From: a virus
Direction: 5' to 3' (one strand)
IMG/VR virus record: IMGVR_UViG_3300048008_000100
Location: 1-37,614 of that record
DNA: 37,614 bases
Under the pieces are notes generated by a model. That model had not been told where the DNA came from and did no database searches. It saw nothing but the letters and a program-made list of their open reading frames with translations. Of the stretch, positions 6,810 through 37,345 are shown piece after piece (the first letter of the stretch is position 1; each line of letters opens with the position of its first letter). A program made the position numbers and the translations under genes.

Positions 6810-8240
6810 TTATCCTTCCAATAGGATTGAGGTTGATGATAAAGCCCTGCCCGCAGGGGCAGAGGATACTGTAGTTGAGAGAGTTCCGTTATCTTGGACG
6901 TAGTAGTCAGAGCCAGTAGTTAAGCCTGTAACATTTTCACTAACCCCACCCTGCACAATCACTGCGCCTGTGGCTGTATCTGCTATGGCTTGGTCTGTTA
7001 TGCCTATGAAGTCGGCGGAGTTTGACGGGGCGTGTTGATAAACCAAAGCCTTGCCGTCATCACCTGCCGAGTCACCGTCCTGATAAGAAATTACGGTGGC
7101 CCTGTTTGAAGAATCGTAAACAGTAGATATAAAATTTACATGAACTGACTGAGCTGTTGTAGAAGCGTTAAAACTAATAGAAGTTCCGCTTACTGTGCCA
7201 AGTACATAAGCTAAATAATCGTTTGGGTCTTCGTCAAAAGCTACAAAAATTTTCTGCGCTTGTGCGTTATAACTTGGTGCTAGGTAGGATATTCCGGCGG
7301 AAGTAAACGCAACAGGAGTACCAAAAGAAATAGACGTGCCTGAGATAGTGCCTACGCAAGCAGTTCCGTAGAAAGAGTTACCACCATCTCGATAAAAAAC
7401 AACAACCTTTTGCGCGGTTGCGTCATACGCCGCAATGTTTGAATTTGCAACCGCTGACTCGTAAACGGTTAGCCCTCCGGCAGAGACAGATGTTCCTGAA
7501 ATTGTAAGAACTCGGCTTGACCCGTAGTAACTGTTATTGCTGTCTCTAAAGAAAACCGCAGAGGCTTGTGCATTTGCATCATAAGCAACGGCTATAGTAT
7601 CTCCATTATCCCATTGGTTTGTTGTCCCTTTAGTAATGCTAGTCCCGCTTACTGTTCCGACAGCAGCGAACATTTGTCCATTGGTTTTCGCCCACAAGAG
7701 AAGCATTTTTTGCGCGTTAGTATCATACGCTAAGTTTTGATGATATGTAGTTCCGGTGTTATCTACTACTAATTTTGTGCCAAAAGAAATAGATGATCCG
7801 CTAACAGTGCCTACAATTGCAGAACAATGATTAGAGCTAGTTCCATCCCTCCAAAGAATAACCATTGCCTCAGCATTTTCATCAAAAGCTATGTCGTTTG
7901 CGTTGCTAGCTCCGCTTGAATAAACAACGGAAGTTCCAAAAGAAATAGATGATCCGCTTACTGTTCCTACAATTGCGGTTGAATAGCTAGAGTTGTTATC
8001 GTCCTCGTAAATAATAACGATTTTATCATTGACTGAATCGTAAGCAGACTTCATCCAATCGGGACTACCTGTAGCAAACGTAGTAGGACTGCCTGTTCCG
8101 GGGCTTCCGGTTCCGACAGCCTCAACCGTCCCATCAGTTTTAAGCACCACAGTAACCCCAGACCCTAACGTGCCACTAGCCACGAAGTCTACGCTTTTCC
8201 CCCCGCCACCCGTAGGTAGTAATTCGCTTAAATTGCTCAT
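6810..8240 (-). CDS. predicted seven-bladed propeller fibre/receptor-binding protein, paralogue 3
   Basis: 476 residues. The N-terminus MSNLSELLPTGGGGKSVDFV is shared with the two upstream paralogues. Seven modules follow from about residue 65, each opening with Y/F-D and carrying G-T-V-S-G-(T/S)-S-I-S-F-G strands, then the shared C-terminal domain (S-A-D-F-I-G-I-T-D-Q-A-I ... Y-Y-V-Q-D-N-G-T-L-S). This copy is the most diverged: several modules lose the N-S-x-Y-G-T-A-I-V-G core and one is only about 48 residues long. Repeats of about 50 residues with four likely beta strands suit a beta propeller. Location among fibre genes suggests surface binding. It overlaps the previous gene by four bases (ATGA). 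Confidence 0.75.
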   Translation of the reverse strand: MSNLSELLPTGGGGKSVDFVASGTLGSGVTVVLKTDGTVEAVGTGSPGTGSPTTFATGSPDWMKSAYDSVNDKIVIIYEDDNNSSYSTAIVGTVSGSSISFGTSVVYSSGASNANDIAFDENAEAMVILWRDGTSSNHCSAIVGTVSGSSISFGTKLVVDNTGTTYHQNLAYDTNAQKMLLLWAKTNGQMFAAVGTVSGTSITKGTTNQWDNGDTIAVAYDANAQASAVFFRDSNNSYYGSSRVLTISGTSVSAGGLTVYESAVANSNIAAYDATAQKVVVFYRDGGNSFYGTACVGTISGTSISFGTPVAFTSAGISYLAPSYNAQAQKIFVAFDEDPNDYLAYVLGTVSGTSISFNASTTAQSVHVNFISTVYDSSNRATVISYQDGDSAGDDGKALVYQHAPSNSADFIGITDQAIADTATGAVIVQGGVSENVTGLTTGSDYYVQDNGTLSTTVSSAPAGRALSSTSILLEG

Positions 8241-9709
8241 GTTGTGTAATCCAAGTTAATGCTAGTGGAGGACAGGGCTTTGCCTGCTAGTACGTCTGAG
8301 GCTGTAGTGGACAGTGTGCCGTCATCCTGAACGTAGTATGTTTCGTTAGGCGTGAGCCCTGTGACGTTGGTAGATATACCGCCTTTGATTGTCACCGAGC
8401 CAGATGCAGTGTCGGAGATAGCGGCGTCTGAGATGCCTATGAAGTCGGAGACGTTGCTTTCTTCGTCTTTATAAACAATGGCCTTGCCGTTGTCATTACC
8501 CGCTATGGTTGGCGCGTTAACTATAACCACTCTGCCTAAAGTAGAATCGTAAGTCGCTGCACTGCCAGATTTAGCGTTTATGTCAGGGTCGTCTGTTGTC
8601 CAGACTACTTTGCTACCAAAAGTAATAGAAGTACCAGAAACTGTTCCTATGTTAAATGTTCCGTTTGTCGCGCCACCAACAAAGTCTCTATATACAAAAA
8701 CTACTTTTCCAGAACTTGAGTTAAAAGCCATACCTATAGGCGCAGTTAATTCTGTGCTTGCAGTTGCTGCTGAGCCAAAAGTAATACTTGTTCCGCTGAC
8801 TGTTCCGACTATGGCTGTCGCTGCATCGCTATTTCCGCCATCTTGATAACCTATCACGACTTTGTCGTTAGCCGTGTCGTATGTAGTTTGTATGTAATTT
8901 GTACTACCCGTGTTAAATACAGCGGCAGAGCCAAAACTAATTGAAGTGCCAGACACTGTACCTACTATTGCTGTACCGTACTGTGAGTTGCCGGTGTCTC
9001 TGTAGGCTATAATGGTTTTGTTTTGGTCAGGGTCATATACCGCTGAAGTAAAACTAGTGCTCGCGCTTTCAAAAACAGTAACAGAACCAAAACTAATACT
9101 TGTGCCACTGACCGTCCCTACAATCGCTGTTCCGTAAGAAGAGTTACCATAATCCACATATGAAAAAACAACCTTTTGCGCTGTAGAATCATAAGCCGCG
9201 CCTATATCACCTGCATTTGCAGTTTCAAATACAGTTGCCGATCCAAAGCTAATTGATGTTCCGCTAACCGTGCCTACTATACCCGTTCCGTAAGCACTGT
9301 TGCTTCTATCTTGATAAGCTATTACTACTTTTTCAGCATTTGCGTCATATACTATGCTTTTATTATCAGCATTTGCGGAAGCAAAAACAACAGCAGTTCC
9401 AAAAGTTATAGAAACTCCAGAGACTGTCCCGACTATGGCTGTACCGTAAGATGAGTTTCCAGCATCCCTGTAGGCAATTACTATTTTTTGAGAAGCAACA
9501 TCGTATGCTGCTGTAACTCTGTCGACATTACTGGTACTAAAGGTAGTTAAAGAACCTAGCTCAGAAGGAGAAGCATCACTAGCAACCGCCGTAACAGTTC
9601 CATCACTATTAAGCCCGACAGTAACCCCACTGCCAATCGTGCCAGACGCTACGAAGCTGACGTTTTTCCCACCACCACCTGCGGGCAGTAGCTCGCTTAG
9701 ATTACTCAT
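8237..9709 (-). CDS. predicted seven-bladed propeller fibre/receptor-binding protein, paralogue 2
   Basis: 490 residues and the most regular of the three. After the common N-terminus (MSNLSELLPAGGGGKNVSFV) come seven modules of about 52 residues. Modules 1-5 are nearly interchangeable, with Y-D-x-x-x-x-K-V-V-I-A-Y-x-D-x-G-N-S-x-Y-G-T-A-I-V-G-T-V-S-G-T-S-I-S-F-G written as a consensus. Module 6 carries a longer loop, and module 7 leads straight into the conserved C-terminal domain (F-I-G-I-S-D-A-A-I ... Y-Y-V-Q-D-D-G-T-L-S-T-T). The high internal similarity suggests recent duplication or ongoing homogenisation. The gene overlaps both neighbours by four bases. A host-recognition role is inferred from context, not shown. 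Confidence 0.78.
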   Translation of the reverse strand: MSNLSELLPAGGGGKNVSFVASGTIGSGVTVGLNSDGTVTAVASDASPSELGSLTTFSTSNVDRVTAAYDVASQKIVIAYRDAGNSSYGTAIVGTVSGVSITFGTAVVFASANADNKSIVYDANAEKVVIAYQDRSNSAYGTGIVGTVSGTSISFGSATVFETANAGDIGAAYDSTAQKVVFSYVDYGNSSYGTAIVGTVSGTSISFGSVTVFESASTSFTSAVYDPDQNKTIIAYRDTGNSQYGTAIVGTVSGTSISFGSAAVFNTGSTNYIQTTYDTANDKVVIGYQDGGNSDAATAIVGTVSGTSITFGSAATASTELTAPIGMAFNSSSGKVVFVYRDFVGGATNGTFNIGTVSGTSITFGSKVVWTTDDPDINAKSGSAATYDSTLGRVVIVNAPTIAGNDNGKAIVYKDEESNVSDFIGISDAAISDTASGSVTIKGGISTNVTGLTPNETYYVQDDGTLSTTASDVLAGKALSSTSINLDYTT

Positions 9710-11151
9710 GTTAAGTCCATCATGTTAATCGTGGTTGCGGAGATTGCTTGGCCTACCTTAACGTCTGAGGTGGTGGTAGATAACGAGCCGTCACCCTGAA
9801 CGTAGTAGTCAGAGCCTATGGTCAAACCTGTCTGCGCTTCGTTAATCCCGCCGTAGACGTTGACCGCGCCTGTGGCTGTGTCAGAGATTGCTCCGGCTGT
9901 TATGCCTATAAAGTCTGCGGAGCTGGATGTTAATGATCCTGCTGTAATAACAACGGCGTCTCCTGCTTGCGCCCCTGCTGCATCCTGATATGCAGTGACT
10001 ATTTTATTCTGAGCTGAATCAAACGTAGAGCTTACATACCCTACCTCTCCAGAATCAAATGTTGTCGGGCTGCTAAATGAAATGCTAGTTCCGCTTACAG
10101 AGCCAACAACAAACTCTCCGTCATCTGTGCTTCCAGAATCTCTATAAGAAACTACAACTCTATCTATTGCAGAATCATAAGACGTTGCTGTGTCAGTAGT
10201 AGAGCTAGAGCTAAAAATAACGCCTGAACCGTAAGAAATTGTTGTTCCGCTTATAGTGCCTACAAAAGATGTTCCGTATGAAGAATTGCTTAAGTTTTTT
10301 CCAGATAAAACTATTTTGCTGCTTCCAACTGCGGAAGAAGAAATATTCTGAATTCTGTTGGCTGAAATAGCGGCATAACTGTTATACGTTAGGCTTGTCC
10401 CACTTACCGTACACAAATAAGAAAATGTACCTGACGAAAAATTTTCAGCAAGAAATACTATACGGCCAGAATTTGGTTCGTAAATTACATTACACCAATT
10501 TACACCGACAGAAAACGATACATTGAGAGATGTTCCAAAGGATATTCCTGTGCCAGATACGGTTCCTACAATACCCCTAAACTCCGAATTACCACTACCG
10601 CTGTTTTGCCACCCTAAAATAATTTTTCCATTTGCAGAATCAAACGTAGACGTTAAGTATTGAGAATTAGAACTATACGCGACTGTTGGTGTTCCAAAAC
10701 TAATACTTGTTCCTGATACAGTTCCTACTACAGCGTTCAGATATCCACTAGCACCCGAGTAGGCAATAACAACTTTATTGTTGCTAGAATCAAAAGTTAT
10801 AGTATTCCAAACACTACCTGATGCAAAAACTGTAGCGACAGAGCCAAAAGAGATAGTAGAGCCAGATACAGTGCCAACCACACACTTTACGTGTACAGTT
10901 GAGCCATCATAATAAGCAACGACAATTTTGCCAGTGTCTGAATCGTAAGCCGAACTAATTCGACCTATGCTTGTGTGAAAAGAGACCGATGTGCCTACAG
11001 AAGTAGTAGCATCAAAAGTTTCCGCAACCGCCTCAACAGTCCCATCAGCCTTCAAAGCAACAGTCTGACCAGAACTCAAAGTCCCAGACGCAACAAAATC
11101 CACCGCATTCTGGCCGCCGCCAGAGGGTAGTAACTCTGACAGATTGCTCAT
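9706..11151 (-). CDS. predicted seven-bladed propeller fibre/receptor-binding protein, paralogue 1
   Basis: 481 residues, with start MSNLSELLPSGGGQNAVDFV and the same end domain as its paralogues (F-I-G-I-T-A-G-A-I-S-D-T-A-T-G ... Y-Y-V-Q-G-D-G-S-L-S). I count seven modules, but modules 3-5 carry insertions and unusual loops (for example the N-I-S-S-S-A-V-G-S-S-K-I-V-L region). This copy is therefore intermediate between a clean repeat array and a diversified one. The gene follows the 635-residue fibre gene with no gap (TAA directly before ATG). A trimeric or propeller-tipped fibre is plausible; the sequence shows the repeats but not the binding target. Confidence 0.75.
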   Translation of the reverse strand: MSNLSELLPSGGGQNAVDFVASGTLSSGQTVALKADGTVEAVAETFDATTSVGTSVSFHTSIGRISSAYDSDTGKIVVAYYDGSTVHVKCVVGTVSGSTISFGSVATVFASGSVWNTITFDSSNNKVVIAYSGASGYLNAVVGTVSGTSISFGTPTVAYSSNSQYLTSTFDSANGKIILGWQNSGSGNSEFRGIVGTVSGTGISFGTSLNVSFSVGVNWCNVIYEPNSGRIVFLAENFSSGTFSYLCTVSGTSLTYNSYAAISANRIQNISSSAVGSSKIVLSGKNLSNSSYGTSFVGTISGTTISYGSGVIFSSSSTTDTATSYDSAIDRVVVSYRDSGSTDDGEFVVGSVSGTSISFSSPTTFDSGEVGYVSSTFDSAQNKIVTAYQDAAGAQAGDAVVITAGSLTSSSADFIGITAGAISDTATGAVNVYGGINEAQTGLTIGSDYYVQGDGSLSTTTSDVKVGQAISATTINMMDLT

Positions 11152-15119: not shown

Positions 15120-18100
15120 CTATATAGGTAAACGCTGTTTTAGCGTAGTTCCGACATCAAAACCATTCTTAAGTATTACGTCTATAGTTTCAGCAGTAGG
15201 CCCAAGTATCGGTAGTATCGGGTTTTTGCCCCATTCGGCGTTTTGAAGAGCCATGTTTCCAATAGCCAAAGGCCCTACGAAGCCCGATCTATCAAATATT
15301 TCGGCTAGATACTGATCCCAGTCCATGCTATCTGACCTAAAGTACCTATCAGACGCGTCTAGTCCGGGGACAGCCCATGCTAAACCATACTTAGCGTACT
15401 CCCTAAGCTCCAGCGCAAGCATAGCTAAAGGCATAGTGGCTATAGCGGTTAGGAAAAACACAGCTGTTGTGGCTGTCAGCTGCTCTATACCCTTAGTCTC
15501 GTTGCGACGGTTTAACGCCTCTCGGAATACACCGCCAGTGATAACTTTGGTGTAGGCATACAGGAACGATTTCAGCTGCCATACCAAAGCCCAATGCGGG
15601 TCAGACGCCCATTGAGGGCGCTCTGCTGCGTTTGGCCTCAAAATAGATGACTCTACAAACCTCTGTAGCCCGCGTTTTACTTTTACGCCCTCTGGACTAG
15701 TCAGCTTACGCCCACCTTTTTCCCAAGCTATTACTTCAGCGGCTGTCAGCCCAAGCTCTTTCAGGTAGCGCTCGGAACGCGGATTATTAAACTCATTCTT
15801 AGCGTGCTTAAGAATGAACTGAACGCCCATGCCAGCGGCAAACTCCCTAGTGAACTTCGTAAAGAAGTTCAATCCAATAACCGAGAAGAATCGATCGCTC
15901 ATCTTACGGACTTTGGTATCCATGTAGTCTTGTTCGGCTTCCGTAACCCAAGCGTTAGCCACTACTTCACTAGTAATTACGCCTAAGTCTCTTGCAAACT
16001 GAGTAGCTTCAGCTCTGTTCTTTATAGTAGCCCCTATTTGCTTAAAAGCGGTCATGAACGTATCCATGTTTAGCTCTTTAGAGTTAATAATCGGGCCTGC
16101 AAGCTCTGGTACAGAAGCTATCGTTGCAAACGGTAAAATAGTCACAAACTGCAAAAACTGCCCGTAGCTATTAATCTTCCGCCACAGTGGACTAAGCGGT
16201 TTACTTTGATACCCCAAGTAAGTACCGATTATGCCCCTAGCAATCTCAGCGTCTTCTTCAGACAGCTTGGCTAACTCAGCATCAAGTAAACTATTACCGT
16301 TAGCGTCTTTAGTATGCGTGTTCCACTCTACTCTTTTAACGATATGACGCATGTAGCTAACAAAAGCGTCTTGCGGCTCTTGTAAAAAACCAGCGTCACT
16401 AAGGAGCTTACGGTCTATACCTTTTGTTAATATAATAGATCTTTCAACTGCCGCTGCTGGGTCTGTAGGATCAATAGTAATAGGAGCGTTATCTTGCACC
16501 GACTCTGCATACTTACGTAAGTACTGCACAGCTTCTAAAGCCCTTTCTCTAGTAATTCCAGGCTGGTTAGCAACTATAAAGTCTACAAACTCATCAGGCC
16601 TAGACTCTATCTCTAATAGATTAAGAACTACTGGGAAGTAGTTTTCTTGGCGGTTTATGTTTGTGTTGGAAGGCTCTATATAGTCATCAAACAACTGATC
16701 TAAAAACTGACGAACTTTTCGAGCCAACGGATTTTCTAGTTCAGCTGTAGGAGTAGAAGAAGAAGCTTCTAATAAAGCGGCTTGTACTTGTGGGTCAGAT
16801 AAAGGGCCTACCTCATCTTCAAACTTATTCTGCAGCCCGTCTAACTTACGAGACTTCGCGCCTAGCATGCCAAGCCCGCCTTCTTGAGAGGCGTCCTGAG
16901 ACCTAACATAAAACATGTCAGCTATAGGCCTGCTTACAGAGCGCAGTACACCGTCTGCTGTTCTTACTAGCTTCATTATAGGACGAATCGCAGGGTTCTT
17001 AGCTAGGTCAGAAATCTTAGACTGCCAGTGTGAAGCTAGAGCTTCGCCGTTCTGCTTAACGATAACTTCTGTTACTTCTGCAGCTAGCTGCTTAGCTTTG
17101 AAAGGAACTTCGTTAGGCGCTGATTCTTTTACGCGCCCCGTAACAGCGTCCATGTACTGCTCAAACTCTTGGGGGAGTTTTCTACCCATGCGTTTACGGA
17201 CGTTAGTAGACAACGTCCTGTAGAGGGCTTTCAAGCTATCGGCTACTTTCTTAAAGTGTCTGTCGGTCAGCGACGCAGCTTTGCGTTTTACAAACTCACG
17301 GCTAGCCCATTTCGCTACGTTATCAGCGTACCATTCTTCAAACGCAAGATCCTGATTACCGTATTTATCTAGGTAGTTCTGACGGCGAGCATCTCTGTTA
17401 AACGCTTTAAGTAACGAATTCCTTAGTGCCCGCTGCGCCAAAGCCCCGTTTTGCTCCTGCTTGAACAAAGCATGTCCAAGCTCGTGCGCTGCAACAACTG
17501 CATCATTTAACGCATTACCAGACTCTCGTATAACCGCTACATTTGCGGCCTCGTTATAAGTGCCTTTTAGAGTTTCCGAAGCACGCATTCTGTCGCGCTG
17601 TTCTATAACAGACTCTAAGGCTTTACCAGAAAACTCCGCCTGTAGCTGAGCATCAGTAGCCGTGTCTAATTGGGCAAACGTTAGTACACGAGGCGGGTTA
17701 ACAAACTTAACAGCCTTAACCAACGTGTCTATAACGCCTTTCACAATAGGGTTAGTAAACCCTGTAGCTTCTAACCCGCCGCCTGTGGCTGGGCCAGTTG
17801 TGGGTGCTCGACCGGAGCGTTGATCCGGGCCAAAAGAAGGGCCAGCTTCTTGCTCAATGCGCGTTTGTGGTATATCGAGATTAGCGCTGCTTCTTTGCAT
17901 GCGCTCAATCTCTGTCATGTCCGTTGTTTCTATTTCTACGTCAGTTTCTGGGTCAAAAGTACCGTCGTTGCGCTGTGTTTCGTTAGTTACAGTTCGCCCT
18001 GATGTTAGCAGCTGCTTTAGCCCTACATCAGTATTTCCAATACGTGCTGCAGTTACATTAAGTGAGTCTGGTAAAGCGCCCTGTATACTAAACAAAGATT

Positions 18101-20348
18101 GTCCATCTATAAGAACGTCGTAGCCTTCCAGCTGAAGATCGGCAAAAATTTCTTGTAAGCCTTTCCTAGCTGACTCTAGAGGAGCACCACTTTGAAACGT
18201 CTCGTCGCCACGTATGCGGAGAAGGCGTTTACCGGCATTGGTAATATCAACTAAGTTGATTTTAGCAGGCCTGCCCCGCCCTTCAGGAGGCACTATGACA
18301 ACGCGAGAGTCGCGAGCAAACTTACTTCGCTTAGCTTTGTTAACTGCCGCCGCTAGAAAAGCCGCACTGTCGAACTCTGAGTCCGCCGGTAGCCCTTCTC
18401 TCACTACTTTATAAGAGTTGCCTTCCTTTATTACAGAGACTTCGGAAGTTGGGTTTCCATTCTGCTCATCAACAGCTTTTCGCAGTAAAGACTCTGACAT
18501 CTCCCCGTAAAAAGGATCAGTCCAATCAGTGGGGCCAAACGCATCTACATAGTCATTTCTTAAAGACTCAGTGTTATCGAAGACCTCATTAGGGTCGCGC
18601 TTGGGGGCGAAGGGGGAGGACTCAACGCGTTCTACTTCTAGCTCTTGCTCAGTTTGGGTCTCGTCAAATACCGTGGTACTGAAGTCATCTTCAGTTATGT
18701 CCATCTCACGGATAGTCGGGCCTGCTTCTTGTTCAGCTCTTTTACGGCGCTCTTCTAGCGCTTTCTCTACAGTTGTGCGACGTACGCTCCCACCTTCCGG
18801 AGCCAAAGCATTGGCGGCGGAAAAAGCGGCTTCTAGCCCGTCTTTACTTGTAACTTCTTCTGAGATGACGGCCCCGTTAGCATCTAGCGCCTGCACCACT
18901 AGATCACCGGGAGCGGTTGTATCTTTAGCTGCGCTATAGCCTAAAGCTGAAGCGAGAGACTGATCACTCGCCTCTTCTTGTATAACTTGGTCTACCGCTG
19001 TTCTGTTTGTAGATACTATAGTGCCACGGCCCGGAATAAACGCTGCGAACGCTAGTTTGCCATTCACTGTTATTTCAGTCGGCTTATTAGGTCTAGCATT
19101 ATACTGAGGGTCGTTACCGGCGACCCAGACAGCTTCTTTGTTGCTAGTATCATCTACCATCGCACTAAGCTGCGCATTAATATCAGCCTGAGACTCGGGA
19201 GTTGTTATCCCCGACATCATATCGCCGTACTGCTCTTTGTTTATCTCTGAGTCAGTCTGCTGAGTCTGCCCTTGGTCTAGTAGGCGTCTAGCTTTATCTA
19301 CTACGTTAGCCGCCAGATTACCCGTGCCTTCTGCTATATCTTCCCTACGAGATATAACGTTGCCTGCGGCTCCGCCTGCAGCACCTAGAGCGCCGCCGCT
19401 AAAGAACCCTGCAAACGCTGCTTCGCCTAACCTTAAGGCAGCTTCTTGTGCTGTAAACGAGTCGTCCATAGAAGCACGGTTGGCTATGGCTATACCTTCC
19501 TGTACAACCTCAGTGGTGCCTTCAATCGCTGCACTTCTACCGGCAGTAGTAGTTATATCCTTAGCAAGAGTAGAGAATATATCTCCATCTTTTACAGCGC
19601 GTTTTGCCGCTACGTTTCCAAACGCTTTTAGTATAGCCGCTTCACCAAGCGTACCAACCGCCGCTATAGGAGCACCAACCAAGAAAGACCTTAAAGCTGT
19701 ATCTGCCCCAAGTTCTTGGTCTGACTCTACAGCCTCTCTAAGCCCGCCAGCCGCTGCTGGCACATACTCTGCACCGAACGCGCCTGACAGAGCGCCACGT
19801 TTTGCGTAGTCGTACGACATCTGGGCAATAAGGCGTTCGTCGGGCGTTGCTACGCCTTTCGCTGTTCGTTCTAATGAGTCTTTGGCGATACGCTGAGCGG
19901 CTTTGGAAGCTACTTTTTTACCTACAGCCTTGCCTATAACGCCGCCTATGCCACCACCTGCTATAGAAGTAATAGCAGAGACAGAAGTCTGTCCGGTAAA
20001 TTTAGCTACTTGGCTTAGGAATCCGTCTACGGAAGGCTCTTCGAGGAAGTCTTCAAAGCTTTGCATGCCTGTAGTGGCTGCGGCGGCAAGATTTTCCCTT
20101 TGTTGCGCCGAACGTATATTATCTTCGGCGGCTTCTTGGTTACCGACTGTGAGATTAAAAAGACCTTTGAAATACTCAACGTCGGCAGACAAACCTTCCG
20201 CACCCGCCTGTAAACCGCGTGAGAAGGTTTCCCCGAGTCCGACAACAGCTGGTGCGCCCGCTTCTGTAGTACCAGTAACTGCATTTACAGGGTTAACTTC
20301 TTCCGACGTGTCTACCTGAAGAAACTGTTTAATAGGATCGTTAGCCAT
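15120..20348 (-). CDS. giant internal virion (ejection) protein with zinc metallopeptidase motif and LPD38-like end
   Basis: 1742 residues. The N-terminal 350 residues contain two glycine-zipper-like hydrophobic stretches (about 121-143, G-G-G-I-G-G-V-I-G-K-A-V-G, and about 310-335), as expected of ejection proteins that enter the cell envelope. A long low-complexity charged linker follows. At residues 955-959 is HELGH within V-V-A-A-H-E-L-G-H-A-L-F, a zincin active-site motif. The last about 200 residues (R-P-Q-W-A-S-D-P-H-W-A-L-V-W-Q-L-K-S-F-L-Y-A-Y-T-K) resemble the LPD38 domain of large polyvalent proteins. It ends the ejection-protein run and precedes the lysozyme. By analogy with T7 gp16-type proteins it should leave the head with the DNA. 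The peptidase substrate is unknown. Confidence 0.8.
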   Translation of the reverse strand: MANDPIKQFLQVDTSEEVNPVNAVTGTTEAGAPAVVGLGETFSRGLQAGAEGLSADVEYFKGLFNLTVGNQEAAEDNIRSAQQRENLAAAATTGMQSFEDFLEEPSVDGFLSQVAKFTGQTSVSAITSIAGGGIGGVIGKAVGKKVASKAAQRIAKDSLERTAKGVATPDERLIAQMSYDYAKRGALSGAFGAEYVPAAAGGLREAVESDQELGADTALRSFLVGAPIAAVGTLGEAAILKAFGNVAAKRAVKDGDIFSTLAKDITTTAGRSAAIEGTTEVVQEGIAIANRASMDDSFTAQEAALRLGEAAFAGFFSGGALGAAGGAAGNVISRREDIAEGTGNLAANVVDKARRLLDQGQTQQTDSEINKEQYGDMMSGITTPESQADINAQLSAMVDDTSNKEAVWVAGNDPQYNARPNKPTEITVNGKLAFAAFIPGRGTIVSTNRTAVDQVIQEEASDQSLASALGYSAAKDTTAPGDLVVQALDANGAVISEEVTSKDGLEAAFSAANALAPEGGSVRRTTVEKALEERRKRAEQEAGPTIREMDITEDDFSTTVFDETQTEQELEVERVESSPFAPKRDPNEVFDNTESLRNDYVDAFGPTDWTDPFYGEMSESLLRKAVDEQNGNPTSEVSVIKEGNSYKVVREGLPADSEFDSAAFLAAAVNKAKRSKFARDSRVVIVPPEGRGRPAKINLVDITNAGKRLLRIRGDETFQSGAPLESARKGLQEIFADLQLEGYDVLIDGQSLFSIQGALPDSLNVTAARIGNTDVGLKQLLTSGRTVTNETQRNDGTFDPETDVEIETTDMTEIERMQRSSANLDIPQTRIEQEAGPSFGPDQRSGRAPTTGPATGGGLEATGFTNPIVKGVIDTLVKAVKFVNPPRVLTFAQLDTATDAQLQAEFSGKALESVIEQRDRMRASETLKGTYNEAANVAVIRESGNALNDAVVAAHELGHALFKQEQNGALAQRALRNSLLKAFNRDARRQNYLDKYGNQDLAFEEWYADNVAKWASREFVKRKAASLTDRHFKKVADSLKALYRTLSTNVRKRMGRKLPQEFEQYMDAVTGRVKESAPNEVPFKAKQLAAEVTEVIVKQNGEALASHWQSKISDLAKNPAIRPIMKLVRTADGVLRSVSRPIADMFYVRSQDASQEGGLGMLGAKSRKLDGLQNKFEDEVGPLSDPQVQAALLEASSSTPTAELENPLARKVRQFLDQLFDDYIEPSNTNINRQENYFPVVLNLLEIESRPDEFVDFIVANQPGITRERALEAVQYLRKYAESVQDNAPITIDPTDPAAAVERSIILTKGIDRKLLSDAGFLQEPQDAFVSYMRHIVKRVEWNTHTKDANGNSLLDAELAKLSEEDAEIARGIIGTYLGYQSKPLSPLWRKINSYGQFLQFVTILPFATIASVPELAGPIINSKELNMDTFMTAFKQIGATIKNRAEATQFARDLGVITSEVVANAWVTEAEQDYMDTKVRKMSDRFFSVIGLNFFTKFTREFAAGMGVQFILKHAKNEFNNPRSERYLKELGLTAAEVIAWEKGGRKLTSPEGVKVKRGLQRFVESSILRPNAAERPQWASDPHWALVWQLKSFLYAYTKVITGGVFREALNRRNETKGIEQLTATTAVFFLTAIATMPLAMLALELREYAKYGLAWAVPGLDASDRYFRSDSMDWDQYLAEIFDRSGFVGPLAIGNMALQNAEWGKNPILPILGPTAETIDVILKNGFDVGTTLKQRLPI

Positions 20349-31957: not shown

Positions 31958-33598
31958 CTATGCACTCATTGATGATTTAATACGCGGTTCTTTTAGAAAG
32001 CCATCTAGGCGGTCTCTCCAAGTTGACTCACGGCTGACGGGAGTAGGCTGGAAAGCTGCGAACTCCGTCATCATAAGACCTAGCCACGCTAATGCGTCCA
32101 CTTGGTCATCGTGTACCCCGTTGGGGAACCTTAATAGCTCTGCTACCAAAGGCCCAGTGAACACTTCGTTCTTAGGCAGGAATACCATACCCTGCTGCAT
32201 TCGGCCTTGTATTGCTCTGGCACGCGCTTCTTTATCACGTCGTCCCGTCTTCAAATCTTTAAAATACGCTTCGTACAGCCCGCGCTCGCGAACCCTTTTC
32301 TCCAAGAACGGGCCTAGGGCCATTTCTATGTGCCCTTTCTCGATGCCAATTATCGAAGGGTGCCACGTCTCGTATAGGTCTAGTATCTGCTCTACCAGCT
32401 CAAAACCGTCGAATCGGCCTCTGACTACGTCAACGACGTATAGCCTATCGTATTCGTCTACGCCTACTACCATCCCGACTGAGTAGTCGTTGCGGTCATT
32501 CTTACCAATCGCCAAGTCCCATGCGCAGTAATAACGTAACCGATCTAAATCTATCGAGTCCTCGTCGTAATACTGCACCATGTCGCGGTTGAAGTAGTCA
32601 CCATCGTCTGCAACTGGGTTCTGCTGAAACAGTGCTGCCCAGTCTCTGGGGCCTACCGCGTTTCGTATCCGCTCTAGCGCTTTCTCGTCATACCGTTCTC
32701 TATGCAGCGCTTCTCCAGCTGCTCTGAATTCTTCGTCCTCTTCGGCTATTGCTGGGTAGCTAACAACTTCCCACTCATCGCCGCCTTCTTTACCCGCACT
32801 TAGCAGACGACCCGCTAGGTCATCGTCATGCCAACGGGTAAGAATAACCAGCACGCCCCCTCCTGGGGCTAGGCGGGTGTACGCCGTTGACGTATACCAA
32901 TCCCAGTTACTGTCTCTGTTGTTCTGACTCTCCGCATCGTCCCGGTTTTTAACGGGGTCATCGATTACAAGGATATGCGCACCCTTACCCGTGATACCAC
33001 CGCCCACACCGGCTGCTACGAAGCCTCCACCGTTTGCTGTCAGCCAAGCCTCAGCAGACTGCGAATCAGGGTCGAGTCTAGTTTTGAAAGCAGTTTTGTA
33101 AGAAGGCTCACGAAGTAGCTGGCGCACTTTCCTAGAAAACCCCATAGCGAGCGAGCCAGAGTATGAACAGCTGATAAACTCGTGGTCGGGGTTCCGCCCA
33201 AGGTGCCAAGCGGGGAATGCAATTGACGCGAGCGTAGACTTACCGTGCCGAGGCGGCATAAAAAGCATGAGGCGTGGCGACTTCTTGTCCACAACGTCTT
33301 GACTGAACTGCTCAAGGCGGCGGCAGATGTCTTTGTGTACCCATCCGGCATTGTAATCAGGGTTAAACCTCTCAACGAACGGCAATAGCCGCTTTCTAGT
33401 GAGGAACCGCAGTGCGAGTTCCGCCCTAGCCTTGTCTTCTACGGACTCTTCAGCCTCCGCAGGCTCTTCGACGGGCACGTTTTCTGCATCGTCTGCTTTG
33501 CAGTAGACGCATAACCCGTCTATTTCTTCAGAGTACAAGGTTTCTGGGCGTTCTTCCTTGCACCTTTTGCACCGTCTGGTGACTATTTCATCGCTCAA
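31958..33598 (-). CDS. terL: terminase large subunit
   Basis: 546 residues from a TTG at 33598-33596 that overlaps the TerS stop (TTGA). ATPase: Walker A M-P-P-R-H-G-K-S-T at 114-122, Walker B I-L-V-I-D-D-P at 209-215, coupling motif I-L-T-R-W-H at 252-257. Nuclease: Asp360 in C-A-W-D-L-A-I, Glu419 in I-G-I-E-K-G, and H-D-D-Q-V-D-A at 495-501. The protein translocates DNA into the procapsid and cuts it. An N-terminal C10-x2-C13 ... C30-x2-C33 makes a zinc-ribbon-like extension ahead of the usual domain, which is not standard. The alternative ATG at 33591 is out of frame, so TTG is the only start keeping the conserved N-terminus. Confidence 0.95.
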   Translation of the reverse strand: MSDEIVTRRCKRCKEERPETLYSEEIDGLCVYCKADDAENVPVEEPAEAEESVEDKARAELALRFLTRKRLLPFVERFNPDYNAGWVHKDICRRLEQFSQDVVDKKSPRLMLFMPPRHGKSTLASIAFPAWHLGRNPDHEFISCSYSGSLAMGFSRKVRQLLREPSYKTAFKTRLDPDSQSAEAWLTANGGGFVAAGVGGGITGKGAHILVIDDPVKNRDDAESQNNRDSNWDWYTSTAYTRLAPGGGVLVILTRWHDDDLAGRLLSAGKEGGDEWEVVSYPAIAEEDEEFRAAGEALHRERYDEKALERIRNAVGPRDWAALFQQNPVADDGDYFNRDMVQYYDEDSIDLDRLRYYCAWDLAIGKNDRNDYSVGMVVGVDEYDRLYVVDVVRGRFDGFELVEQILDLYETWHPSIIGIEKGHIEMALGPFLEKRVRERGLYEAYFKDLKTGRRDKEARARAIQGRMQQGMVFLPKNEVFTGPLVAELLRFPNGVHDDQVDALAWLGLMMTEFAAFQPTPVSRESTWRDRLDGFLKEPRIKSSMSA

Positions 33599-34370: not shown

Positions 34371-34865
34371 TTAATCACAAGAATGGTCGTGAATCGTTTT
34401 TACCCACCAGTAGAAGTCACTTGTACTTAAGCTGTGGCGCATCAGATTAACCCTAGTACATACCAACTGTACGTTACCCGGGATATAGCCTTTTTCGGAG
34501 TCTATACGGTCTACGGACGCATTTAAATCTTTACGCCCGCCCCCGTCACTGTGGTGTGTCATGTGGACACCGGACAGCGCACAACGGCCATCGTTCTCGG
34601 TCCATAGGTTTTTTAGGTGGTCTTCGGTTATAGAGAACTCATTTACAGGGGCATCTTTCCTAGAGACTCTGTTTTTTGTCCTTACCCAGAGATGATGTAG
34701 AAACGATTCGTAGCTGGCGCTAACTCGGCTGCGCCTTTGAAGTTCTACGCACTCATAACACACTTTTCGTTTAAACGAAGTTTCGCTACGAATACCGAAC
34801 TCTGGCAGCGGCTTCGTCTTCTCGCATATTTTGCAGTACTGCGTCTTGTCTTTCATGCGGGGCAT
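34371..34865 (-). CDS. HNH endonuclease with N-terminal zinc ribbon
   Basis: 164 residues. C11-x2-C14 and C36-x2-C39 form a zinc ribbon. G-R-C-A-L-S-G-V at 93-100 and A-S-V-D-R-I-D-S-E-K-G-Y-I-P-G-N-V-Q-L-V-C at 116-136 with V-N-L-M-R are the classical phage HNH signature, in which Asp/His side chains position the metal and N-V-Q-L the ring. HNH proteins beside terminases can assist cleavage of concatemers, as in HK97-type systems; alternatively it is a free-standing homing nuclease. It is the first gene of the late leftward block. The ribosome binding site is weak (AAG). Confidence 0.9.
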   Translation of the reverse strand: MPRMKDKTQYCKICEKTKPLPEFGIRSETSFKRKVCYECVELQRRSRVSASYESFLHHLWVRTKNRVSRKDAPVNEFSITEDHLKNLWTENDGRCALSGVHMTHHSDGGGRKDLNASVDRIDSEKGYIPGNVQLVCTRVNLMRHSLSTSDFYWWVKTIHDHSCD

Positions 34866-35653: not shown

Positions 35654-36047
35654 GGGTCATTTAGCCGCTGTCCTCGGCCCACGGGCCTCGGTCATCGCCC
35701 CCACGGGATGTGTGCAGCTAACTCAAATGTGTGCAGCAAACAGAGCTTTCCCTGCACACATTACAACTCATTGATTTACTTAACAATTACATCAATGTGT
35801 TCAGTGTGTTCAGTGTGTTCACCCTTTTTCACACTTAATATATATACATTTTGTATTTTTAAAAAACATTTCCTTTTGAACTTAGAAGAAGAAATAGACG
35901 AACACACTGCACACATCAATGTTTATGCGGCCTGTAGCTCGATTTTGCCTGCACACATGCCTGCACACATTGCTGCACACACCCCTGTTTGCTGCACACA
36001 TTTCACGATTTACTGTATAAATTAACAGCTAACAAAGGACACTAACC
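35654..36047 (+). other. repeat-rich gene-free stretch; candidate replication origin or master operator
   Basis: 394 bases without a convincing gene. ATGTGTGCAG occurs at 35708-35717 and 35727-35736. Its complement CTGCACACA(T/C) occurs at 35752-35761, 35907-35916, 35949-35958, 35961-35970, 35973-35982 and 35992-36001. A 9-bp unit (A/G)TGTGTTCA is repeated three times in tandem at 35795-35821, with an inverted partial copy GAACACAC at 35900-35907. Between the groups lies an AT-rich core at about 35825-35880. This clustering of iterons around a melting-prone core is typical of theta-type origins; a large operator is the alternative. Confidence 0.6.
35725..36003. repeat. perfect 19-bp inverted repeat bounding 241 bases
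   Basis: Left arm AAATGTGTGCAGCAAACAG at 35725-35743; right arm CTGTTTGCTGCACACATTT at 35985-36003. The arms are exact reverse complements and embed one ten-base iteron each. An internal CATTGAT/ATCAATG pair at 35769-35775 and 35791-35797 forms a further stem. No duplicated target site flanks the arms, so a transposon-like origin is not supported. Confidence 0.85.
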
Positions 36048-36343: not shown

Positions 36344-36547
36344 ATGTTCAAACAAACAGCATTGCAAGCAGTAACCTCAGCTAAACCAACACTAATCAAA
36401 GTGTGGAACCACCTAAAAGAAAACCCTTCAGACGCTATTCTTGGTGTTATGGCAATCACGATGCTTGGCATTGACGATTCACTAGACCAAATAGAAGAGA
36501 TGGAAGAACTTCAAACTATCATCGATGTTAATAACTACAGAGGATAA
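36344..36547 (+). CDS. hypothetical small phage protein
   Basis: 67 residues, MFKQTALQAVTSAKPTLIKV, with AAAGGA nine bases before the ATG and the same AACAAAGGA context as its neighbours. The middle (A-I-L-G-V-M-A-I-T-M-L-G-I-D-D) is hydrophobic enough for one short span, and the end is acidic (Q-I-E-E-M-E-E-L-Q-T-I-I-D-V-N-N-Y). Its end supplies the AGAGGA ribosome binding site of the next short gene. I do not recognise it. The intergenic gap before it contains CTCGTTCCTCGTCG, related to the hairpin near 35090. Confidence 0.55.
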   Translation: MFKQTALQAVTSAKPTLIKVWNHLKENPSDAILGVMAITMLGIDDSLDQIEEMEELQTIIDVNNYRG

Positions 36548-36552
36548 GCCTT

Positions 36553-36711
36553 ATGTATATGCATTCGTTAAACACTGACCACTGGTCATGGGTATTAGAT
36601 AGTGAAACCGAGCAAGACCAACCAACCAATAACAATGGAGAATTAACCAATGAACAACTCATCAACGACCAATTCAACAGCCAATTCAACGGAGACACCA
36701 TCAGTGAATAA
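36553..36711 (+). CDS. 52-residue Asn-rich protein overlapping the next gene
   Basis: ATG 36553 to TAA 36711, with AGAGGA eight bases upstream. The product starts MYMHSLNTDHWSWVLDSETE and continues with an asparagine/glutamine-rich tail (Q-P-T-N-N-N-G-E-L-T-N-E-Q-L-I-N). Its last 62 bases overlap the next gene in another frame, and the next gene's ribosome binding site lies inside it. Both frames show Asn/Gln/Thr richness in the overlap, as the AAC/CAA-rich DNA dictates. The good ribosome binding site supports translation; whether the protein matters or it only couples translation is open. Confidence 0.45.
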   Translation: MYMHSLNTDHWSWVLDSETEQDQPTNNNGELTNEQLINDQFNSQFNGDTISE

Positions 36712-37345
36712 TTCATTCATCGAACAAGCAATCAGCAAGCTAGCAGAGCAAAACTCCTCATCAACAGGTAAAGCAGCGCGTGTCGTAGAAGCACAGGATC
36801 ACAAGAACCCAGCAAATCGCATCGCTCTTGCATACCTTCAGCTGTCTCGCGAGCGTCTAGAAGCCGCCAAAGCAGAGAAAGCAACAGGCGTCAGGGGCAC
36901 AGACCCCATCGTCAAGCCAGAGCTAATGCTTAGCTTTGTGCAAAACGTAATGAACCAAGTATGTTGGAACGCACGACGTCTAGTTGTAGCTAACTCAGCA
37001 GAAGACTTTGCCAACGGCATCGACTTCAGCCAAGACGTAGCAGAACAGACAGGCGTCAGCAGCGAGACAGAAAACGTCAATCAATTCGTTGACGACGACT
37101 TCATGACGCTCAACAACGTACAGACATGGCTCGGTGCGCAGATGTCATACCTCGACGACATACAGCCTCTGTTCTACTTTGCGCAGTCAGAAGAAGTAGA
37201 CGGTGAATGGGTGCAGACGCATCAATCTATGAGCTTCTACGATGCACAGTGCTCAATGACAGAGATCATCGAATCGCTAGACGACAAGAACGTAGTCAAG
37301 CAGCGATCAGAAGCAGCATCAATGGACTTCAGCGCAGCAGCTTAA
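36650..37345 (+). CDS. hypothetical early phage protein
   Basis: 231 residues with GGAGA eight bases before the ATG. The first 22 residues are Asn/Ser/Thr-rich and probably disordered (MNNSSTTNSTANSTETPSVN). The rest is mainly helical, with a conserved-looking centre (P-E-L-M-L-S-F-V-Q-N-V-M-N-Q-V-C-W-N-A-R-R-L-V-V) and an acidic second half (F-V-D-D-D-F-M-T-L-N-N-V-Q-T-W-L-G-A-Q-M-S-Y-L). No catalytic motif or membrane span. It is the largest rightward gene seen and ends just before a strong terminator, so it closes a transcription unit. Codon choice is more C-ending than in the late genes, which may reflect different expression or origin. Confidence 0.75.
   Translation: MNNSSTTNSTANSTETPSVNNSFIEQAISKLAEQNSSSTGKAARVVEAQDHKNPANRIALAYLQLSRERLEAAKAEKATGVRGTDPIVKPELMLSFVQNVMNQVCWNARRLVVANSAEDFANGIDFSQDVAEQTGVSSETENVNQFVDDDFMTLNNVQTWLGAQMSYLDDIQPLFYFAQSEEVDGEWVQTHQSMSFYDAQCSMTEIIESLDDKNVVKQRSEAASMDFSAAA

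Follow-up and report, generated by a model that had tools for sequence, protein, structure and literature searches.

We analysed a virus record from IMG/VR (IMGVR_UViG_3300048008_000100; 37,614 bases, without end repeats) from an uncultured aquatic phage, hereafter the window, and found near its right end a cluster of short repeats, or iterons, at 35708-36003. This cluster is probably (at a probability of about 0.8) a phage replication origin on the plan used by Staphylococcus aureus pathogenicity islands (SaPIs) and phage-inducible chromosomal islands (PICIs), bound by a superfamily 3 (SF3) helicase; binding, melting and bidirectional replication are what we infer. The novelty would lie in the setting: the plan is known, but here it would serve phages of full size and lie about 9 kb away from its presumed initiator. 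We favour an origin over an operator because the geometry of the cluster is kept while the letters of its iterons change, its AT-rich spacer is nearly constant, the iterons are constrained but the reading frame across them is not, an SF3 primase-helicase co-occurs with it and its arrangement matches the SaPI/PICI plan.

Two opposed iteron blocks around an AT-rich core

The iteron TGTGTGCAG occurs eight times exactly in the window, every time inside 35709-36000: on the plus strand at 35709 and 35728, and on the minus strand at 35752, 35907, 35949, 35961, 35973 and 35992. The first-pass annotation of this DNA, made from its letters, had described eight copies of a ten-base element in mixed orientation. 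Eight copies of TGTGTGCAG on both strands bear this out, but the ten-base form ATGTGTGCAG is exact at only seven sites, the eighth (35973) reading GTGTGTGCAG. Sixty dinucleotide shuffles of the window gave at most 4 copies in the top 8-mer cluster per 350 bp, against the 8 observed. Two opposed iteron blocks enclose a 78-bp core, as follows.

35708-36003, no strand assigned: complete iteron cluster, the proposed replication origin; repeats whose position and layout are kept in relatives
35709-35736, plus strand: outer iterons of the terL-side arm, TGTGTGCAG at 35709 and 35728
35752-35760, minus strand: lone odd-orientation iteron within the terL-side arm; in a similar place (about 240-263 on the normalised map) in most clade relatives
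35796-35822, plus strand: inner 9-bp tandem triplet of variant iterons, TGTGTTCAG TGTGTTCAG TGTGTTCAC; a corresponding inner 9-bp tandem is present in relatives
35822-35899, no strand assigned: AT-rich core of 78 bp, 77% AT, the proposed unwinding element
35900-35915, minus strand: inner iteron(s) of the early-gene-side arm, a GAACACAC half-site and CTGCACACA at 35907
35949-36000, minus strand: outer iterons of the early-gene-side arm at 35949, 35961, 35973 and 35992; spacing 42-12-12-19, compared with 42-12-12-18 in the nearest relative, L133
35708-36025, plus strand: 105-residue open frame spanning the cluster, judged not to be a gene from codon-position differences and the lack of a Pfam or PHROG match

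The three tandem 9-bp units noted in the first pass are TGTGTTCA(G/C) at 35796, 35805 and 35814, and its AT-rich core is best placed at 35822-35899; only 0.04% of the window's 78-mers have an AT content as high. Exact 19-bp inverted arms 241 bp apart (35725-35743 and 35985-36003) are also present. They had been taken to frame the whole element, but we do not regard them as its defining feature because they amount to two opposed iterons with matching flank and are imperfect in the nearest relative.

Could the repeats instead be coding sequence for a 105-residue protein with internal repeats? The frame is open throughout 35708-36025 and has 50% protein identity to L133 over the aligned stretch. 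Nucleotide differences from L133, however, fall on codon positions 1, 2 and 3 at 34/106, 30/106 and 25/105, with no third-position excess, and the bases that have changed make up 8/106 of the iteron positions against 81/211 of the rest. More distant relatives resemble the frame only weakly and in part. A protein is therefore an explanation to which we give almost no credence: since there is no third-position excess and conservation falls on the iterons of both strands, we conclude from the sequence comparison that the stretch is not a gene and that constraint acts on the repeats rather than on the overlapping frame. The first pass, too, had seen no convincing gene here, and had proposed weighing repeat conservation against codon pattern in relatives.

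Mostly constant layout and changing letters among relatives

Relatives were found and anchored by the terminase large subunit, TerL (31958-33598, minus strand, in the window), and were counted where there was enough upstream DNA. Of the 27 TerL-anchored relatives, 26 have a mixed-orientation 8-mer cluster at about 2-3 kb upstream of terL, and the sole miss, L068, is a contig that begins about where the cluster is expected. When each upstream stretch was shuffled 20 times, the count stayed at 4 copies or fewer. The iteron itself varies, in about a dozen kinds (TGTGTGCAG, TGTGTGCCA, TGTGTGTCA, TGTGTACCA, TGTGTGTCC, TGTGTGTAC, TGTACCAGC, TTGTAGCAG, TGTTGCAGG, TGTGTAGCA, TTCGTGCCA, ACTGTGACA and others), many of which have a TGTGT-like half in common while the remainder varies.

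The layout is mostly constant, running from outer iterons through an inner 9-bp tandem and an AT-rich core (usually 74-79 bp) to a mirrored arm. On a common map of the clade, the first arm has outer iterons at about 0, 20, 31 and 43 and the inner 9-bp tandem at about 95/104, followed by the core; the mirrored arm has its inner tandem at about 188/197/206, usually one odd-orientation iteron at about 250, and outer iterons at about 276-306. The window reads 0, 19, 31, 43 and 85, then the core, then 178, 187, 196, 240 (odd), 264 and 283 on the same map, and the GTGTGTTCA triplet of the first-pass annotation is the inner tandem of this layout. The largest iteron-free gap measures 74-79 bp in most clusters of the window's clade (clade A). 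Over 57 non-identical clusters from all families, a set that includes one short GC-rich hit (L045) probably of another kind, this gap averages 69% AT against 50% in the flanks. Some origins carry two iteron variants, for example TGTGTGTCA and TGTGTGCCA together at L036 7585-7891 and at L031 4320-4616, and the window's cluster likewise carries two; such two-variant origins may mark a half-way stage in the replacement of one set of letters, or one specificity, by another.

These comparisons support the first-pass reading of origin iterons plus an unwinding element. They also bear on the alternative it had offered, a multi-site operator for an XRE-type protein, at which a phage regulator on the iterons would control the early operon to either side. 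The cluster does sit, as the first pass had it, between groups of small plus-strand early open reading frames (ORFs); phages commonly have early-region regulators, and by our reading of its sequence a protein in the early region of relative L079 is XRE-like. Set against this, 10-13 sites in two opposed blocks about a near-fixed AT-rich core would be unusual for an operator, similar clusters stand beside SF3 primase-helicase genes in unrelated phages, and among those window proteins that were scanned with Pfam, a subset of its ORFs, neither an XRE-type protein nor any other recognisable DNA-binding regulator was detected. We consider an operator improbable; the likelier partner of the iterons is an SF3 primase-helicase with a DUF5906 domain, whose gene relatives carry at a distance of about 9 kb.

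An SF3 primase-helicase as presumed initiator

Relatives of full length encode a DUF5906/SF3 primase-helicase. The DUF5906 domain is present in an 847-residue protein of clade relative L136, relatives of which occur in 71 loci; in loci holding both, the cluster lies about 8.4-9.8 kb upstream of the DUF5906 gene. Another clade member, L107, has a family A DNA polymerase. DUF5906 was found in 22/44 cluster-bearing or clade records, the negatives being family B records (see below), mostly short clade A records and one 5-kb family D fragment, and in 2/50 records taken as cluster-negative; we attach no P value to this co-occurrence because the lineages are few. In L192 the cluster was detected de novo, and the record then proved to contain a DUF5906 gene, which the cluster follows at about 1 kb.

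An AlphaFold2 model of the L231 protein (30 sequences) reached a mean predicted local distance difference test score of 78 and a predicted template modelling score of 0.43, so the arrangement of its domains is uncertain. Its best structural match was the C-terminal region of the NrS-1 protein (E = 8e-19), followed by poxvirus D5/E5, African swine fever virus PrimPol and PriRep1. Residues 731-810 are modelled as helix-strand-helix-helix-strand-strand, which we read as the order of a predicted C-terminal winged helix. In the mechanism that we propose, two blocks of 9-bp iterons would face each other across the unwinding element of about 78 bp, and the DUF5906 (D5-like, SF3) primase-helicase would bind them through this winged helix. 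Two SF3 hexamers, one per arm, would assemble facing each other, open the AT-rich core and load, and replication would proceed in both directions together with the phage's family A DNA polymerase.

Clusters were also retrieved by motif scan alone from phages unrelated to the window (families B-E). The DUF5906 gene adjoins the cluster in families C and D and lies 3.4 kb from it on the same contig in family E; six of the seven records of these three families have DUF5906, the exception being a 5-kb fragment. In family B a large DnaG-type primase fusion precedes the cluster by 110-155 bp. The GTGTGCAG clusters of this family (L088, L115, L130, L150 and L180) face outward rather than inward (--- +++), and the fusion, of about 1080 residues with a C-terminal part lacking a clear Pfam match, stands just before the cluster in four of the five records (it was not seen in L088).

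Six of 12 named phages picked by primase homology have a cluster in the fetched stretch: NrS-1, Lodos, Moraxella phage Mcat9, Proteus phage 2207-N35, Stenotrophomonas phage Suzuki and Porphyromonas phage 030a. It stands directly past the gene in NrS-1 and 0.7-3.4 kb away in 2207-N35, Suzuki and 030a; a position directly 3' of the primase-helicase or primase gene is common to families B, C and D, NrS-1, Lodos and Mcat9. The Lodos cluster was overlooked by the scan, spotted by eye and afterwards measured, at 0+, 9+, 20+, 40-, 85+ and 94+, then the core, then 195-, 204-, 213-, 259+, 270+ and 290+. In the NrS-1 record (AB746912.1; L298 5889-6290), the hypothetical-protein ORF directly after the primase gene, NRS1_29, overlaps the 11-copy iteron cluster and may be an annotation artefact. 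A TerL search of genome contigs for a host returned contigs of metagenome-assembled genomes with doubtful binning and, among named isolates, one locus each in Parendozoicomonas haliclonae (L310) and Motiliproteus coralliicola (L312). Both have a related TerL (59-61%) and an iteron cluster, with DUF5906 on the same contig about 14 kb (L310) and 19 kb (L312) from it, and neighbouring phage genes make them apparent prophages.

The positions of these clusters bear on a further explanation, a pac or cos packaging array recognised by the small terminase subunit. It would suit the clade, where the cluster is upstream of terS-terL, as well as NrS-1, where it stands directly before terS, and Proteus phage N35 and Suzuki, where it is near terS or a predicted cos site. 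The cluster nevertheless comes after the primase-helicase gene in Lodos, Mcat9 and families B, C and D, and contig ends, a sign of physical termini, are at most mildly enriched at the cluster. A packaging role is very unlikely.

Several observations weigh against an SF3-bound origin. The other six named phages gave no cluster by scan of the fetched stretch, and Aeromonas phage phiA008 and Pseudomonas phage KPP25 have homologous SF3 proteins (28-29% identity) and no such cluster. (A tandem repeat in KPP25 was set aside as a likely coding repeat, nearly all its copies having the same orientation.) The cluster scan was likewise negative in two DUF5906 records, G088, searched whole, and G057, in which 20 kb was searched. 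Co-variation of the iteron letters with the SF3 C terminus was not clear and showed no clear determinant, the independent lineages being too few. Unlike that of SaPIs and PICIs, the clade origin is not adjacent to the helicase gene. GC skew, a check put forward in the first pass, lends the origin no support: it is monotonic across the window's cluster and shows no consistent pattern among relatives. Finally, the initiator gene is absent from the window, as only about 1.6 kb of the record follows the cluster and the expected position lies beyond its end; because of this, the initiator of the window's own phage is assigned from relatives, and we expect that phage to carry a DUF5906 gene.

The origin might instead be opened by another initiator, for instance DnaA or some other host protein, or a 231-residue neighbour of the cluster, leaving the SF3 protein the role of replicative helicase alone. 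Two early genes near the cluster are conserved.

36344-36547, plus strand: early ORF of 67 residues, small and conserved; homologues close to the cluster in many clade members
36650-37345, plus strand: early gene of 231 residues, conserved; homologues adjoin the cluster across the clade

The 231-residue family adjoins the cluster in those clade members that were examined, whatever their iteron class, and co-variation of iteron and SF3 protein did not emerge. The 231-residue protein is, however, mainly helical and without known family or fold; a fold search with its model gave no significant structural match, and we read its secondary structure as suggesting no known DNA-binding fold. In families B-E an SF3-type or primase-fusion gene accompanies the cluster, and a homologue of the 231-residue protein was not detected there. 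DnaA-box-like matches with at most one mismatch are at chance level in the window (29 against 31 expected, none exact), one of them (TTTTTCACA, 35825) falling in the core. Another initiator is unlikely, and an SF3-bound origin is the reading we prefer.

Gene context, known origin systems and meaning

A P22-like portal, a major head protein and the TerL homologue are encoded on the minus strand of the window, and its right end carries small early ORFs on the plus strand. As a query in viral contigs the 231-residue early protein found no close relatives, and megablast of the early region against phages gave no match. An HNH/endonuclease VII-like protein is encoded at 34371-34865 (minus strand), and many relatives carry homologues between the cluster and terL. 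Elsewhere on the minus strand, three neighbouring ORFs of 476-490 residues (6810-8240, 8237-9709 and 9706-11151) have a common MSNLSELLP start and GTVSGTSISFG-type repeats; they resemble tandem paralogues, perhaps tail or fibre proteins, with Pfam matches weak at best. A 233-residue phage protein (4650-5351, minus strand) contains a lipase class 3 domain (PF01764, E = 1.8e-16), and a 1742-residue protein (15120-20348, minus strand), without a Pfam match, has a HELGH motif typical of zinc metalloproteases and is possibly an internal virion protein.

For PICIs, an AT-rich region with one iteron set on each side is reported to be invariable in the origin, an organisation which the authors, who tested pri-ori function in EcCICFT073, say is shared by no other known bacterial replicon (PMC6092414). 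SaPI Rep reportedly recognises its iteron origin through a C-terminal domain and binds apparently as two hexamers (PMC7581432). The window cluster, too, has two iteron sets flanking an AT-rich region. The islands have a helicase initiator with an origin-recognising C-terminal domain (PMC6092414, PMC7581432), and such a protein is predicted here from relatives. In those islands the origin is immediately 3' of the initiator gene, whereas clade relatives place it about 8.4-9.8 kb from the DUF5906 gene; and unlike a PICI, which draws on virion proteins of a helper phage, the window encodes its own portal, major head protein and TerL homologue. Cch2 of the staphylococcal cassette chromosome SCCmec belongs to the D5 helicase family and binds short direct repeats through its C-terminal domain (PMC7581432). 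Its putative origin has three 5-bp iterons directly downstream of cch2, whereas about 11-13 sites form two arms here. NrS-1 has a helicase domain homologous to the clade SF3 protein and 11 GTTACACTT-type iterons directly past its primase-polymerase-helicase gene; it differs in that the cluster adjoins the gene, has other iteron letters and is annotated as a hypothetical ORF.

Satellite P4 has two separate cis elements, ori and crr, whose short repeats are read by the fused primase-helicase alpha. Short repeats and a fused primase-helicase would be points of likeness, but we found one cluster rather than two elements. Lambdoid O-protein origins and Rep_3-type iteron plasmids have direct-repeat iterons on one side of an AT-rich element. 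They share iterons and an AT-rich region with the window, where, in contrast, two opposed arms enclose that element; the DnaA boxes that stand alongside iterons in Rep_3 or DnaA-dependent origins do not exceed chance in the window.

In the PLE satellite, the initiator and the origin are reported to be exchanged as a pair, probably in response to a nuclease that targets the origin (PMC8263062). By analogy, nuclease pressure of this kind on the clade origins is only a possibility. More generally, we suggest tentatively, and with rather more doubt than confidence, that within one clade the initiator-iteron pair repeatedly changes its letters through two-variant intermediates while origin geometry stays near-fixed, possibly driven by competing co-infecting relatives, satellites or origin-directed nucleases, and so gives rise to private replication types. 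If the origin reading is true, full-size phages also use a SaPI/PICI-type origin, in a large aquatic clade and in cultured phages such as NrS-1 and Lodos, which would bear on the source of the satellites' replicons. With about a dozen iteron sequences set in a near-constant geometry, the origins of the clade form a natural series in which the evolution of initiator specificity becomes directly testable. The apparent prophages of M. coralliicola and P. haliclonae provide cultured starting material, and the evolution of origin recognition could be probed by comparing phages whose origins match with phages whose origins do not.
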